Shown: positions 37,723 to 44,152 of the stretch, in pieces
How positions within the stretch are numbered: the first letter of the stretch is position 1
Layout: every line of letters begins with the position of its first letter
From: Acidobacteriaceae bacterium
GTDB lineage: Bacteria; Acidobacteriota; Terriglobia; Terriglobales; Acidobacteriaceae
Length of the DNA stretch: 64,000 nt
Assembly: GCA_030037545.1 (NCBI GenBank)
Contig: JASHRF010000118.1
Location: 1 to 64,000, forward strand
Direction of reading: 5' to 3'
Made by a program: the position numbers and the translations under genes
Notes under the pieces: generated by a model
What the model saw: only the letters and a program-made list of their open reading frames with translations
Database searches by the model: none
Told to the model about the DNA's origin: nothing

Positions 37723-39249
37723 TTATTGAGCGCCAGATTCAGGATTCGCCGCACCTGTCCTTCGCCCTTGCGGCGCGACTCTGCTAATAGCAGCGGCCAC
37801 AGCCACGCCGCCCAGCGCAAAAATCATCGGAAAACATTCCAGCGTATAGCGCGCTTCGGGCGCTTCCACGGTCAGCAGCAACGCGCTGCGCAGCAGCATG
37901 TAGGCGAGCAGGGCCTTCCAGTAACGCGGGCGCAGCCACAGGCCGGTGGCCGCCAGCAGCAGGAAGAGAGCGTTCAGTCCGGTGTAGAACCAGCTGAAGC
38001 GGGTCTCTGCGTTGTGGTGCGCGTAGACCCACCAGTCAAGATCGATGTTCAAGTTCTCGACGCGGGGCCTGAGCCACATGTCAGCCACACGGCCCAGCGG
38101 CAGCCACACGTAATAGCGCCAGGGATGGGCGGCCACGCGCGCGGCAGCCAGACGCGCAAAGGCGGCGTCGATCTGCGGCGTCAGATTCTCGCCGTGGGTG
38201 TTGTAGTCCTGCGCCAGCGCAACCGTCGCGGCGCGCTGCGCGGGAGAATCGAAGGCGCGGCTGGGGAGCTGGCTCACGTCCAGTGCGCCGTCGGGAACGG
38301 GCCAGTAGATTTGATAAGTGGAGATGAAGTCGAGGCACCAGGTTTTGACCCAGCGCTCCCAACCCGGGTAGGTGTCTTCGCCGGGGTCAGTGGCCAGGCG
38401 CGGGACCAGCGGCTCAAAGACGTGAAAGACGCGCCAGTTGCGCCACGTCCATGCGGCAAACGGCGCCAGCGCGAGCAAGGCGCAGACAATCGCCTTCGTA
38501 ACCGCCCCGCTCTTCGGCGCGCCGCGCAGGCTCATCAGCATCAGGGGCGCAAAAGCAATGGCCGCCAGCGCGCCATCGGGGCGGAGCAGCGTTGCATAGG
38601 TCACGGCGAAGGTGAAGGTCAGCGCGCTTCCCCATCCCGGCCCCACACCCCATCGGCCAAGACCTGCCGATGGGGGTCCCGGCTGCTCGTGGAAGCGGCC
38701 CATGGACCACATGGCCAGGGCGAGCACAAAGAGAGTTGGCGCCTCAGCCAACGGCATCGCCGCGTAGGAGGCCGTGAACGGGCACAGTGCGGCCAGCCAC
38801 AGCGTAGCCAGTCCGCTGCGGCGGGCAAATGCCTCATCACGGTCCCGGATGCTGCGTGCAGCCAGTCGCGCAAAGTCGGCCAGCAGCAGGCAGCCTGCCA
38901 GCTCCAGCGCAATGGCCACGCAGGCCGCGGACCAGTAGTTTTCCATGCCGAAGAGCCGGAAGCAGGCCGCCAAAAACAGTGGATATCCGGGCAGCCGCAT
39001 GAGCGTGGGAGCGAGCGCGCCGTTGGGCGCGGTCAGGGCGTAGCGGCCATGCAGCAGCAGGTTCTTGGCGATGCCGCCGTAGATGAGCGAATCGCCATTT
39101 ACATCAAAGACCGAGGGCAGCATCCAGATGCGCAACCCCAGCCCGCAAGCGAGCGCCAGCCCGCCAACGACAGCTACTCCGGCTGTCAGGCCTGTCCTGA
39201 CGCGCATGGCGCCCGCCCGCGCGCATTGACTCTCTTGGACGCCTTCCAT
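37723..39249 (-). CDS. GT39/ArnT-like membrane glycosyltransferase
   Basis: A protein of about 508 residues with roughly ten membrane helices. After TM1 comes VFDVNGDSLIYGGIAKNLLLHG and MRLPGYPLFL, the periplasmic loop layout of GT-C enzymes (PMT/ArnT-like) that use polyprenyl-phosphate sugars; the Asp in the first loop would be catalytic. The large C-terminal half has further helices and ends in a basic, soluble tail. The start at ATG 39249 is preferred to an upstream frame of low complexity. It follows the dehydrogenase-side strand with a 103-bp gap and is divergent from the big polysaccharide enzyme, so an envelope role is likely. Confidence 0.75.
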   Translation of the reverse strand: MEGVQESQCARAGAMRVRTGLTAGVAVVGGLALACGLGLRIWMLPSVFDVNGDSLIYGGIAKNLLLHGRYALTAPNGALAPTLMRLPGYPLFLAACFRLFGMENYWSAACVAIALELAGCLLLADFARLAARSIRDRDEAFARRSGLATLWLAALCPFTASYAAMPLAEAPTLFVLALAMWSMGRFHEQPGPPSAGLGRWGVGPGWGSALTFTFAVTYATLLRPDGALAAIAFAPLMLMSLRGAPKSGAVTKAIVCALLALAPFAAWTWRNWRVFHVFEPLVPRLATDPGEDTYPGWERWVKTWCLDFISTYQIYWPVPDGALDVSQLPSRAFDSPAQRAATVALAQDYNTHGENLTPQIDAAFARLAAARVAAHPWRYYVWLPLGRVADMWLRPRVENLNIDLDWWVYAHHNAETRFSWFYTGLNALFLLLAATGLWLRPRYWKALLAYMLLRSALLLTVEAPEARYTLECFPMIFALGGVAVAAAISRVAPQGRRTGAANPESGAQ

Positions 39250-39466
39250 ACGATTCTCAATGTATAGCGTAGACCGTTTGCGCGCTGAACAGAACCTGCC
39301 GGAACTGCCAACCGGGCTGGGCGCAGAGTCACCGCGCGCTGCCGCCCGCGTCCAATAGATGCCGGGGTGCGTTGCAGCGGGCGACGCGTGATTCCTGGAC
39401 AACCCGGTACCGTAATTGGAGACGGCGCCGGCAACGCTATAGAGCCCGCGGAGACGCTACCGGCCG

Positions 39467-42400
39467 ATGCCAGAACGCCAGATTTTTTTCGATCCGCAAC
39501 GCAAGCGCTGGAAGCGGCTGCGCCGCATTCTGGATGCTGCCGCGGTGCTGTCGACGCTGGTCGTGGCAGCCTTTATCTTCAGTGCTTTCCGCGGCCAGCG
39601 GCTGCCCGGGCTGTTGCTGCCCGTGCCCCGCCACAACTTCCGCGCCCTGCCCGATCGCACCCCACTGCTGCGCAAAACCAAGGTGCAGCGCCCGGCGCGG
39701 CGCAAAACCAATCGCCGCCCCTCCGACATCCCCCTGAACACCGGTGAGGGCCTGCGCGCCGCCTATTACGTGCAGGACGACGCCGCCAGTTACACCTCGC
39801 TCAAAGAACATGTTCACCAGATCGACATGCTTTTTCCGCAGTGGCTGCACGTGGACTCTCCCAGCGGCACATTGATGGCCATGAGCGGCGACAACCTGCA
39901 TGAGTTCCCGGTGATCGAGGGTGATACCGTCCACGATCCCGACTACCTGAACAAAGTGAAGCGCGTGGTTCTGGCACCGCCGGCGGAAACTGAAATCTTT
40001 CCCCATCTCAACAACTACAACCCGCACACGCAGAGCTGGGACGAGGGCTTGGGCGCGGTGCTCCAGAATCCGGATAAGAGCGCCGCGCTGCGCGACCAGA
40101 TTATGCGCTTCCTCATCGCGTATCCGGTCTATCGCGGTCTCTCGCTGGACATCGAAAGCATTCCCGACGACGCCGACCCGGCTTATATTGCGTTCATTCA
40201 GGCGCTCTATGCCCAGATGCATCCGCGCAATCTGCGCCTCTACGTCAACGTAGCTGTAGCCACCAGCGACGCCGACCTCAAGACCATCGCCGCCAACTCC
40301 GACGGCATTATCCTGATGAACTACGACCAGCACGAGCAGAACAGCGACCCTGGTCCGGTGGCCGCGCAAAGCTGGTTTGTCGGCAATCTGCAGCGTGTCC
40401 TCAAGCTGGTGCCCCGCAACAAGATCATCTGCGCCATCGGCAACTACGGCTATGACTGGACGCTCTCCATCCCCAACCCCAAGGACCGCCGTCACCGCAA
40501 GCCGCAGGTGCTGGACACGGAAGATTTATCGGTCTCCGACGCCTGGGAGCGCGCCTCCGACGCCGACGCCGACCTCGACCTGAATTACGACACCCTCAAC
40601 CCCCACTTTGAATACATCGACGAAGACAATAACCAGCGCCACGTAGTCTGGTTCCTCGATGCCGTGACGGTTCTCAACGAGATGCGCGCCGCGCGCCAAT
40701 TGGGGCTGGAGACCTTCGCGCTATGGCGGCTGGGCGAAGAGGACAGCTCGCTTTGGAGCATCTGGGACCGGCCCAGCGCTCCCGAATCGCTCCAGGCGCT
40801 GGGCACGGTGCTGCCCGGACACGATGTGGACACGGAGGGCGACGGCGACATCCTGCGCATCACCGGGTTGCCGCAACCCGGCAGGCGCACCGTCGAAGTG
40901 GATACCGACGAGCCCGACCCGCGCAAGAAGCTCATCGTCGACGAGCACATGGATGTCTATCCGCGCACTTACACCATCGAGCAGTACGGCTACCACCCCA
41001 AGGAGATTGCGCTCACATTCGACGACAGCCCCGATCCCACCTGGACGCCGAAGATCCTCGACATTCTCAAAGCCAAGCATGTCAAAGGCACTTTCATGGC
41101 CATTGGCTCAGAGGCTGCGCAGCACGTAGGCCTGATGCAACGAATTGTCCGCGATGGCAACGAGATCGGCAACCATACCTGGACCCACCCCGACATCAGC
41201 GAAATCTCCACGCGCCAGCTCGATCTCGAAATCAACCTCACGGAACGCCTTTTTGAGAGCAAGCTGGGCGTGCAGCCGCTTTATTTCCGTCCCCCCTACG
41301 ATATCGACGAAGAGCCCGACACCGACGACGAGGCCGCGCCAGCGTGGCGCATTCAGCAAAAGGGTTACATCATCGTGGGCAGCAAGGTCGACACCGACGA
41401 TTGGGACGAGCATCCGCGCAAGACGCCGCAGGAGATCACGCAGTCGGTGCTTACGCAACTGAACACCATGAAGACCAAGCCGCAGTTCAGCGGCTCCATC
41501 ATCCTCATGCACGATGGCGGCGGCGACCGCTCCGCCACCGTGGCCGCGCTTCCCGTGCTCATTGACGCGCTGCGCGCCCACGGCTACACCCTGGTCCCGG
41601 TTTCCGCGCTAATGGGCAAGACCACCGCGCAGGTCATGCCCCCGCTCACCTTCTGGGCGCGCGTCCGCACCATTCCCGACTCCATCGCCTTCTCCGCGCT
41701 CGACGCTGTCGGCACCTTCATTGTGATGGTCTTCTTCGTCGGCGATGTGCTCATGAGCGCGCGCCTGATCATCGTCGGATTCATGGCCATTATCGACCGC
41801 CTGCGCCGGCCCCACCGCGAGGCGTCGCCGGGCTACAATCCGCGCGTGGCCGTGCTCATTCCCGCCTATAACGAAGAGAAGGTCATCGTGCGCACCATCC
41901 GCTCGGTGCTCAATTCCGATTACAAGAACCTGCACGTGATCGTCGTCGACGACGGCTCCCACGACCGCACTGCCGAGGTTGCCATCGCCGCCTACAGCAA
42001 GGAGATCGCCGCCGGCCGCGTGCAGGTCTTCAGCAAGCGCAACGAGGGTAAGGCCACCGCCCTCAACTATGCGCTGGAGCGGATCAACGAAGAGATTTAC
42101 ATTGGCATCGACGCCGATACCGTGGTCGCCACCGACGCCATTTCCAAGCTGGTCTCGCACTTCGAGGACGCCACCATCGGCGCCATGGCCGGCAACGCCA
42201 AGGTGGGTAATCGCGTGAACCTGTGGACGCGCTGGCAGGCACTCGAGTACATCACCAGCCAGAACTTCGAGCGCCGGGCCATGGACTTATTCCACGTGGT
42301 TACAGTGGTGCCCGGAGCCATCGGCGCGTGGCGCACCGCGCCCGTGAAAGCCGCCGGCGGCTATCCGCTCAATACCGTGGCCGAAGACGCCGACCTTACC

Positions 42401-42997
42401 ATGAATCTGCTCGAGCAGGGCCTGAAGGTGGACTACGAAGATCGTGCGCTGGCCTACACTGAAGCGCCAATCGATATGAAGGGCCTGATGCGCCAGCGCT
42501 TTCGCTGGTCGTTCGGCATTCTGCAATCGTTATGGAAGCATCGCGCCGCGTTTACCAAGAACCTGGCGATGGGACTCTTCGCGCTGCCCAACATTCTTAT
42601 TTTCCAGATGCTCCTGCCCCTGGTGTCGCCGTTCATCGACATCATGTTCGCGGCCGGTGTGGTGAATTATTTTGTCGATCGCCACTACCACCCCGAAGCG
42701 GCCTCGCCCGCCAGTTTTGAAAAGCTGGTGGCCTACTTCCTCGGCTTCCTGCTCATCGACTTCGTCACTTCGTCGCTGGCCTTCAGCCTGGAGCGCCGTC
42801 ATCCGGCCAACAAGGGCGACGGCTGGCTGCTCTTCCACATCTGGCTGCAGCGCTTTGCCTACCGGCAAGTGTTTTCGGTCGTATTGTTCAAGACCCTCAA
42901 GCGCGCCATCGACGGCAAACCCTTCACCTGGGATAAGCTGGAGCGCACGGCGACGATGAGCAAACACACCGAGGCGCTGGTGGAGTCGGTGCAGTAA
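39467..42997 (+). CDS. GH18-like / NodB deacetylase / GT2 synthase fusion
   Basis: A 1176-residue envelope enzyme with three modules. TM about 20-42; GH18-like domain about 95-445 (VYRGLSLDIESIPDDAD holds the DxE end of the DxxDxDxE site; IILMNYDQHE); polysaccharide deacetylase about 505-730 with TFDDSPDP, HTWTHPD, RPPYDID, VDTDDW and ILMHDGGGDRS, all five NodB motifs; then TM and a processive GT2 about 800-1010 (VDDGSHD, IDADTV, EDADL, QRFRW) with C-terminal helices. GT2 of this class polymerises beta-1,4- or beta-1,6-linked GlcNAc and NodB domains deacetylate it, so a partly deacetylated exopolysaccharide made by one polypeptide is inferred, comparable to PgaB plus PgaC. No other exopolysaccharide gene is adjacent. 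Confidence 0.9.
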   Translation: MPERQIFFDPQRKRWKRLRRILDAAAVLSTLVVAAFIFSAFRGQRLPGLLLPVPRHNFRALPDRTPLLRKTKVQRPARRKTNRRPSDIPLNTGEGLRAAYYVQDDAASYTSLKEHVHQIDMLFPQWLHVDSPSGTLMAMSGDNLHEFPVIEGDTVHDPDYLNKVKRVVLAPPAETEIFPHLNNYNPHTQSWDEGLGAVLQNPDKSAALRDQIMRFLIAYPVYRGLSLDIESIPDDADPAYIAFIQALYAQMHPRNLRLYVNVAVATSDADLKTIAANSDGIILMNYDQHEQNSDPGPVAAQSWFVGNLQRVLKLVPRNKIICAIGNYGYDWTLSIPNPKDRRHRKPQVLDTEDLSVSDAWERASDADADLDLNYDTLNPHFEYIDEDNNQRHVVWFLDAVTVLNEMRAARQLGLETFALWRLGEEDSSLWSIWDRPSAPESLQALGTVLPGHDVDTEGDGDILRITGLPQPGRRTVEVDTDEPDPRKKLIVDEHMDVYPRTYTIEQYGYHPKEIALTFDDSPDPTWTPKILDILKAKHVKGTFMAIGSEAAQHVGLMQRIVRDGNEIGNHTWTHPDISEISTRQLDLEINLTERLFESKLGVQPLYFRPPYDIDEEPDTDDEAAPAWRIQQKGYIIVGSKVDTDDWDEHPRKTPQEITQSVLTQLNTMKTKPQFSGSIILMHDGGGDRSATVAALPVLIDALRAHGYTLVPVSALMGKTTAQVMPPLTFWARVRTIPDSIAFSALDAVGTFIVMVFFVGDVLMSARLIIVGFMAIIDRLRRPHREASPGYNPRVAVLIPAYNEEKVIVRTIRSVLNSDYKNLHVIVVDDGSHDRTAEVAIAAYSKEIAAGRVQVFSKRNEGKATALNYALERINEEIYIGIDADTVVATDAISKLVSHFEDATIGAMAGNAKVGNRVNLWTRWQALEYITSQNFERRAMDLFHVVTVVPGAIGAWRTAPVKAAGGYPLNTVAEDADLTMNLLEQGLKVDYEDRALAYTEAPIDMKGLMRQRFRWSFGILQSLWKHRAAFTKNLAMGLFALPNILIFQMLLPLVSPFIDIMFAAGVVNYFVDRHYHPEAASPASFEKLVAYFLGFLLIDFVTSSLAFSLERRHPANKGDGWLLFHIWLQRFAYRQVFSVVLFKTLKRAIDGKPFTWDKLERTATMSKHTEALVESVQ

Positions 42998-43005
42998 TGC
43001 CGCCC

Positions 43006-43026
43006 TTCGTGGTTCGTGATTCGTGG
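43006..43026. repeat. heptamer array, 3 units TTCGTGR
   Basis: TTCGTGG, TTCGTGA, TTCGTGG in tandem, starting 8 bases after the stop codon of the fusion enzyme. Same kind of array as the others in the window. Confidence 0.7.
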
Positions 43027-43153
43027 GTCGCGCGATCCTGCCCTGACACAAGGCTAGCTGGAATACGGTGAGAGCATCTGGACGGCAGTCCCCACGGTAT
43101 AAACTTGCTGTTCGCGTTCAGATGATGTTCCGGCCGTGCGAATTGGAAACGCC

Positions 43154-43344
43154 ATGCGCAAGCTTCTGTTGGCTCTCCCTCTCGGCTTTGCATCCGTTTT
43201 TATTCCGGCCCAACCGGACCGCTTCGGCGCGCCACGAACACTTCGTCCGCGGCGTCCAGGCGCCCTATGACCTTCGAGGACATGATGAAGATGAAGGGGC
43301 TGGGCGAAACGGCCGTCTCCCACGATGGCAAGTGGCTGGCGTAA
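43154..43344 (+). pseudogene. S9-type peptidase, 5' remnant with frameshift and nonsense codon
   Basis: ATG 43154 opens a signal peptide (MRKLLLALPLGFASVF). About 60 bases on, the coding continues in another frame as RRPMTFEDMMKMKGLGETAV and SHDGKWLA, then TAA at 43342-43344. This is how prolyl-oligopeptidase (S9) precursors begin after export, before the first beta-propeller blade. So the remnant has a frameshift, a probable Tyr-to-stop change, and lacks the remaining several hundred codons. It lies between the fusion enzyme and fabG. Confidence 0.6.
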
Positions 43345-43402
43345 TCCATCAGGGCAAGCGAGCGCATTGTTCCACCCCAACCAAGAACTGTGAACTGTGC
43401 CT

Positions 43403-44152
43403 TCACCCGCCCATGAACATGCCGCCGTTCACGTCCAGTACATGCCCGGTGATGTACGCGGCCGCATCGGAGGCCAGAAAGGCCACGGCCTGCGCAATTT
43501 CCACGTCCGTTCCAGCGCGGCCGAGAGGAATGGCCGCCAGCATCGCCGCGCGCTGCTTCTCGTCGAGCACGGCGGTCATGGGCGTCTCGACATATCCCGG
43601 CGCAACCGCGTTCACCGTTATCCCGCGCGAAGCCACTTCGCGCGCCAGAGAGCGCGTCAAGCCGATCAATCCGGCCTTGGATGCGGCGTAGTTCACCTGT
43701 CCCGCCTGCCCGGTGCGGCCCACTACGCTCGATAGATTCACGATGCGTCCCCAGCGGTTTCTGAGCATGGTGCCGAGTAGCGCCTGCGTCAGCAAAAACG
43801 CCCCCGTCAGGTTGGTGGCCAGAACGTCGTCCCAATCGGCGCGCTTCATGCGCAGCATCAGCCCGTCGCGGGTAATGCCGGCGTTGTTTACGAGGATTTC
43901 GACTTTGCCGAATTGTTCCAAAGCGCTCTTCGCGCACGCCTTGATCGAATCTTCGCTGGCGATATCGAGCGCGAACGCGGCAGCCTTGCCGCCGGCGGCT
44001 TCGATCTCCGCGACCGCTGCGGCCAGTTTGGCCTCATTACGCGCCGCCAGCGCCACGGTAGCTCCGCGCCAGGCGAGTTCCAGCGCACACGCGCGCCCAA
44101 TTCCCTGCGATGCCCCGGTCACCAGGGCAATTCGCCCATCCAAATTTCCCAT
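43403..44152 (-). CDS. fabG: 3-oxoacyl-[acyl-carrier-protein] reductase
   Basis: A 249-residue short-chain dehydrogenase of the FabG type, reducing beta-ketoacyl-ACP with NADPH in fatty-acid synthesis. Seen: VTGASQGIGRACAL (cofactor glycine motif), NNAGITRDGLMLRMK, the Ser-Tyr-Lys set in NLSSVVGRTGQAGQVNYAASKAG, and C-terminal YITGHVLDVNGGMFM. Every FabG hallmark is present, but other fab genes are not adjacent, so a paralogue acting on another ketoacyl substrate is possible. Confidence 0.9.
   Translation of the reverse strand: MGNLDGRIALVTGASQGIGRACALELAWRGATVALAARNEAKLAAAVAEIEAAGGKAAAFALDIASEDSIKACAKSALEQFGKVEILVNNAGITRDGLMLRMKRADWDDVLATNLTGAFLLTQALLGTMLRNRWGRIVNLSSVVGRTGQAGQVNYAASKAGLIGLTRSLAREVASRGITVNAVAPGYVETPMTAVLDEKQRAAMLAAIPLGRAGTDVEIAQAVAFLASDAAAYITGHVLDVNGGMFMGG

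Follow-up and report, generated by a model that had tools for sequence, protein, structure and literature searches.

Introduction

Can a single polypeptide polymerise an amino sugar, deacetylate the chain and trim it? The question is raised by a gene in a 64,000-nucleotide stretch of DNA from an Acidobacteriaceae bacterium (contig JASHRF010000118.1; the window hereafter means this whole stretch), which a first-pass annotation described as a single chain in which GH18-like, NodB and processive GT2 domains are joined, with membrane segments between them. We find that the fusion is a real, conserved, multi-phylum enzyme architecture that is in the databases already but apparently uncharacterised, and that it is likely to be a membrane-bound, self-contained synthase and processor of a partly de-N-acetylated GlcNAc (HexNAc) homopolymer. 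Such a protein offers a compact model for coordinating the synthesis, deacetylation and cutting of GlcNAc polymers, a question that work on PgaB and PgaC as separate proteins has left open, and the Acidobacteriaceae, where the fusion is near-core, are abundant in soil and little known in their surface chemistry.

Results

The reading frame is intact (Table 1) and three Pfam models match its product above their cut-offs, Glyco_hydro_18 at residues 192-424 (45 bits), Polysacc_deac_1 at residues 510-611 (102 bits) and Glyco_tranf_2_3 at residues 792-1017 (114 bits), which bears out the annotated composition of the chain. The AlphaFold model of the fusion has a mean pLDDT of 83.3 and a pTM of just 0.62, so the placement of the domains relative to each other is less certain. 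The basic flank of TM1 is its N side and that of TM2 its C side, and one TM separates NodB from GT2; the simplest reading is that the N-terminus lies inside, GH18 and NodB outside and GT2 inside. The annotation had named a cytoplasmic location of GH18 and NodB as fatal to its proposal, and this predicted topology has both of them extracytoplasmic. Preceding TM1 is a short signature whose residues F7 and R14 are found in 96 of 97 homologues (102 full-length sequences, 97 after removal of duplicates); the same [VI]F-x6-R-[W] motif is also visible in a Kocuria NodB-GT2 protein.

Table 1. Coordinates in the window of the fusion gene, its parts and the adjoining gene
Feature	Position	Strand	Remarks
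GH18-NodB-GT2 fusion gene	39467..42997	+	1176 aa, ATG start, 0 internal stops
N-terminal signature IFFDPQRKRW, cytoplasmic	39482..39511	+	consensus [VI]F-x6-R-[W]
TM1, residues 13-41	39503..39589	+	N side basic, predicting N-in
GH18 TIM barrel, residues 94-440, SleL/YdhD/CvChi-like	39746..40786	+	Pfam and predicted structure
GH18 catalytic D228-I-E230	40148..40156	+	homologue conservation
Linker domain, small, beta-rich, residues 441-502	40787..40972	+	predicted structure
NodB/CE4 de-N-acetylase, residues 503-720	40973..41626	+	Pfam, conservation, structure match
TM2, long helix, residues 736-780	41672..41806	+	C side basic, predicting out to in
Processive GT2 domain, residues 790-1025	41834..42541	+	DD, DAD, ED, QRFRW; Pfam, conservation
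C-terminal membrane/interface helices, residues 1026-1149	42542..42913	+	predicted structure; TM number uncertain
Divergent partner, GT-C fold membrane glycosyltransferase (PMT_2/ArnT/Pmt-like)	37723..39249	-	508 aa from ATG 39249

The nearest relatives of the fusion are those of an Acidobacteriaceae MAG (80% identical) and of Terracidiphilus gabretensis (72%), and relatives that cover its full length are known from Acidobacteriaceae, Rhodanobacter, Alphaproteobacteria, Domibacillus and Mesobacillus, as well as from plasmid-labelled records of Deinococcus, Sphingobium, Novosphingobium, Prevotella and Sulfitobacter. At E <= 1e-80, matches were found in 2 of 329 sampled genomes of the phylum of Domibacillus, 7 of 349 of that of Rhodanobacter and 16 of 296 of that of Pontibacter. 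Within the Acidobacteriaceae the gene is near-core (134/150 genomes, 99/109 good-quality genomes, 72/79 genera) and mostly single copy, several second matches arising where one gene is divided over two contigs, while phage records held no match spanning 80% of the protein. We rejected a chance or assembly fusion, because 51 of 297 sampled Acidobacteriota genomes encode the protein in full or nearly full length and so do many other phyla. Full-length homologues in several phyla, together with the low dN/dS against the 80%-identical relative (L004; 0.13/1.13 overall, and low in each of the three domains), indicate that the fusion is more than a chance event.

The five NodB motifs, with the metal-binding D-H-H, and the DD, DxD, ED and QxxRW motifs of processive GT2 synthases, followed by a synthase membrane part, are all present, as the annotation had stated for the motifs. 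Their catalytic residues hardly vary: D519, D520, H570, H574, R608, D645 and H682 of NodB are invariant in the 97 homologues, and so are the GT2 DxD, ED and QRxRW residues with the sole exception of one D828N. The best NCBIfam model for the GT2 part is PgaC_IcaA, which spans residues 759-1146 (model 8-389 of 407) at 173 bits; as this score lies under the PgaC/IcaA equivalog cut-off of 422 bits, homology fixes neither the sugar nor the linkage. Chitin_synth_2 and NodC models match the GT2 domain too, the latter over its catalytic core only. In the predicted structure, GT2 and the C-terminal helices (residues 751-1174) resemble hyaluronan synthase (8snc; Z 30.4, 382 residues), and the PgdA-like Bc1960 deacetylase (4l1g; E 6e-13) is among the Foldseek matches.

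The annotation held that GH18 keeps only the end of its motif, and this is literally right, since the window sequence GLSLDIE has other residues in place of the first two Asp of DxxDxDxE. The catalytic Glu is present, however, and solved relatives likewise lack these two Asp: GINVDFE in CvChi, GVTIDFE in YdhD and DIHFDFE in SleL/YaaH of B. megaterium. On this sequence comparison GxxxDFE is the normal motif of a SleL/YdhD-type GH18 subgroup, for which the window motif is complete and no remnant, so that the shortened motif is not a sign of decay and, given its agreement with the solved SleL, YdhD and CvChi enzymes, we rejected a degenerate GH18. The predicted fold agrees, matching the C. violaceum chitinase (5jh8; Z 32.2, rmsd 2.4, 307 aligned) and SleL (Z 31.9), and the TIM barrel carries the D-x-E and the substrate-site Y-D of GH18 (D228, E230, Y286, D287). 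The active-site set D228, E230, Y286 and W420 is mostly conserved among homologues, D228 being kept in 94 and E230 in 86 of the 97.

The catalytic Glu is replaced in the other 11 homologues, by Q in a Granulicella/Bryocella group, by S or R among Bacillota, by T or R among Sulfitobacter-like proteins and by D in some Bacteroidota, and in a tree from which the GH18 columns were left out it was lost about five times (at least five changes). Given this repeated loss, hydrolysis is dispensable to the architecture, whereas the barrel is always kept. The Gln of the Granulicella/Bryocella proteins (L011, L015, L016, L017) is a natural counterpart of chitinase E-to-Q mutants. GH18 could thus be mainly a module that binds or guides the chain, with hydrolysis incidental, a reading to which we give real though minority weight: the Glu varies whereas the catalytic residues of NodB and GT2 almost never change, and GH18 has the lowest mean identity of the three domains (0.36, the other two having 0.50 and 0.57). 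However, the Glu is retained in the window protein and most homologues, and the GH18 domain is under purifying selection (dN 0.15 and dS 1.22 against L004).

Similarity searches and domain order both relate the GT2 and NodB parts to actinobacterial NodB-GT2 proteins with the layout of MatB. By blastp, such proteins score 215-217 bits against the GT2 domain, compared with 123 for E. coli PgaC and 99 for NodC, and 125-152 bits against the NodB domain, compared with 98 for rhizobial NodB. A Streptomyces protein of this layout is 37% identical to the window protein in GT2 and 41% in NodB, a match in layout and not an established MatB orthologue. The order NodB, TM, GT2 of MatB-type proteins is found in the fusion, with GH18 as an addition. 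When the GT2 domains are placed in a tree, fusions from Acidobacteriota, Pseudomonadota, Bacteroidota and Deinococcus group with modest support and those of Bacillota fall outside any firm grouping; the references, including PgaC and NodC, sit on very long branches, so the sister group of the fusion is unsure.

These relationships bear on the linkage of the product. Kinship of GT2 and NodB to MatB and PgaC favours a beta-1,6 linkage, whereas the GH18 domain favours beta-1,4: GH18 enzymes rely on participation of the N-acetyl group and mostly cut beta-1,4 GlcNAc links, a preference that fits a beta-1,6 chain poorly and that we count against it. The product might instead be a beta-1,4 chitin- or chitosan-type chain or oligosaccharide, as with NodC and NodB, and GH18 a chitinase that sets its length. 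The match of the barrel to chitinases and to SleL, which cut beta-1,4 GlcNAc links, the hits of the Chitin_synth_2 and NodC models and the clear homology to rhizobial NodB speak for this alternative, but we think it rather unlikely, as GT2 and NodB are nearer to the PNAG-linked MatB-type proteins than to NodC and NodB and the NodC model is limited to the catalytic core.

We then turn to the genes around the fusion. None of PgaA, PgaB and PgaD scored above curated cut-offs in any of 36 Acidobacteriaceae genomes (0/36 each; the genome of the window, 89% complete, is included), while the E. coli control was positive and the weak PgaA matches were short matches to the TPR region; an operon with pga genes was therefore rejected. 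Clustering of flanking ORFs from 51 loci yielded local, lineage-specific neighbours only and none conserved across phyla. No Rfam match (riboswitch or other RNA) was found in 38900-43500, and a promoter and terminator scan near the fusion gave no convincing excess. Two single cases involve plasmids: in Deinococcus the gene after the fusion encodes a diguanylate cyclase (L093 11594-13129), a possible link to c-di-GMP, and in Kocuria a chitinase-annotated gene (L097 7203-8189, minus strand) adjoins a NodB-GT2 gene.

Within Acidobacteriaceae, a gene for a GT-C fold membrane glycosyltransferase adjoins the fusion divergently in 38 of the 39 distinct loci whose upstream sequence is available, the exception (L020) having it broken into pieces. 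This pairing is new in this analysis. Of the other window neighbours tested, none recurs in more than one further locus, so shared gene order in general does not account for the adjacency. Loci of other acidobacterial families show the partner divergent in one case (L152) and, in two (L203 and L209), on the same strand downstream of the fusion. Its orthologues score 49-51 bits with PMT_2 (cut-off 26.1); the window copy reaches 17 bits, below the cut-off, and its structure model (pLDDT 82.3) has a GT-C fold that matches Pmt4 (Z 25.2) and ArnT (Z 24.2). Among family genomes chosen for having or lacking the fusion, the partner was found in 12 of 13 with it versus 2 of 11 without it (Fisher p = 0.0005, only indicative, as shared ancestry was ignored). 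One of the two partner genes lacking a fusion lies at a contig edge and the other (G1362) is real; there the partner (L210 4889-6376, minus strand) is present and a tricorn-like S41 protease gene occupies the expected fusion site. The label of a single-protein system suits most phyla, which lack a conserved neighbour, but the Acidobacteriaceae have a conserved partner gene. GT-C enzymes of the PMT_2/ArnT type use a polyprenyl-linked sugar outside the membrane, which makes decoration of the nascent polymer a natural guess; by this analogy the partner probably adds a sugar borne on polyprenyl phosphate to the polymer or to a carrier.

Discussion

A self-contained synthase and processor of the PgaC/PgaB kind is the likely identity of the fusion. 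It is favoured by the near-full-length PgaC_IcaA match, the processive-synthase fold that includes the membrane part, the kinship of GT2 and NodB to the MatB layout, the invariant NodB catalytic residues, the GH18 active-site set, the predicted topology and the lack of PgaA, PgaB and PgaD matches above cut-off, and its self-containment by the lack of a conserved neighbour outside Acidobacteriota. Starting from the computed domains, residues, fold, topology, distribution and pairing, we infer activity, sugar, chain growth, processing and the role of the partner as follows. Cytoplasmic GT2 would polymerise UDP-GlcNAc and drive the chain across by way of its own membrane helices, and NodB, tethered at the outer face, would de-N-acetylate the chain as it emerges. 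The GH18 barrel beside NodB would grip the chain and, where the Glu is kept, may cut it, setting its length or releasing it, so that the work of PgaC and PgaB would be combined in one chain; in Acidobacteriaceae, the GT-C transferase might optionally decorate the product.

Besides the PgaC_IcaA score under the cut-off, the GH18 preference for beta-1,4 links and the uncertain number of C-terminal TM helices, two observations count against this synthase reading. No outer-membrane exporter was identified, and bulk EPS of two Granulicella strains consisted of Man, Glc, Gal and Xyl with no acetate by NMR, amino sugars lying outside the standards (PMC5259719); the latter argues against an amino-sugar polymer, though a minor surface polymer could have been missed there. 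We regard as very improbable that the fusion instead modifies or builds a peptidoglycan-related glycan and not an exopolysaccharide: its GH18 is like the SleL/YaaH spore cortex-lytic enzymes and its NodB like PgdA-type peptidoglycan deacetylases, but its GT2 part comprises a complete synthase and a membrane part to go with it, and processive GT2 synthases are not known to make peptidoglycan.

Going further, we tentatively suggest, while thinking it doubtful, that the fusion is a one-gene replacement of the pga operon in several phyla, coupling synthesis, deacetylation and length control or release at the membrane, and that Acidobacteriaceae have a two-gene version in which GT-C branches or decorates the chain. 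If true, this would mean that some of the commonest bacteria of soil make a new type of polymer. The GT-C gene paired with the fusion is a concrete lead to a modified polymer.

How does the fusion compare with known systems? The annotation considered its domains to be normally separate, which holds generally, but NodB-GT2 fusions are known, and the triple combination has been tabulated. The closest characterised layout is that of MatB of Streptomyces, which likewise unites in one chain a CE4/NodB domain on the outside, a TM helix and a GT2 of the PgaC type in the cytoplasm and which is needed for PNAG, as experiments with mAb F598, dispersin B and periodate demonstrated; no GH18 is reported in MatB and a partner, MatA, is needed, whereas the fusion carries a GH18 (PMC5972031). 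A 2020 survey also found GT-deacetylase fusions without pgaA and pgaD, and the part of it consulted does not describe GH18 (PMC7112194). Proteins of Acetivibrio cellulolyticus and Sphingobacterium multivorum have the same domain set as the fusion, and 'GH18-CE4-GT2' appears as just a table entry or a count, accompanied by neither function nor analysis (PMC3413522, PMC7065263); no functional study of the triple fusion was found in the PMC literature.

PgaB and PgaC of the E. coli pgaABCD system, like the fusion, bring a synthase, an extracytoplasmic deacetylase and a TIM-barrel hydrolase to bear on a GlcNAc polymer, but they are separate proteins and PgaB has a GH153 domain after NodB where the fusion has GH18 before it. 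NodC and NodB, too, are a GlcNAc synthase (beta-1,4) followed by a deacetylase, but they are separate proteins with an oligosaccharide product and lower similarity to the fusion. SleL, YdhD and CvChi share fold and GxxxDFE motif with its GH18 but are free enzymes, whereas in the fusion this domain is joined to a synthase. The fusion is a variant of PgaC/PgaB- and MatB-type synthesis and not a new kind.
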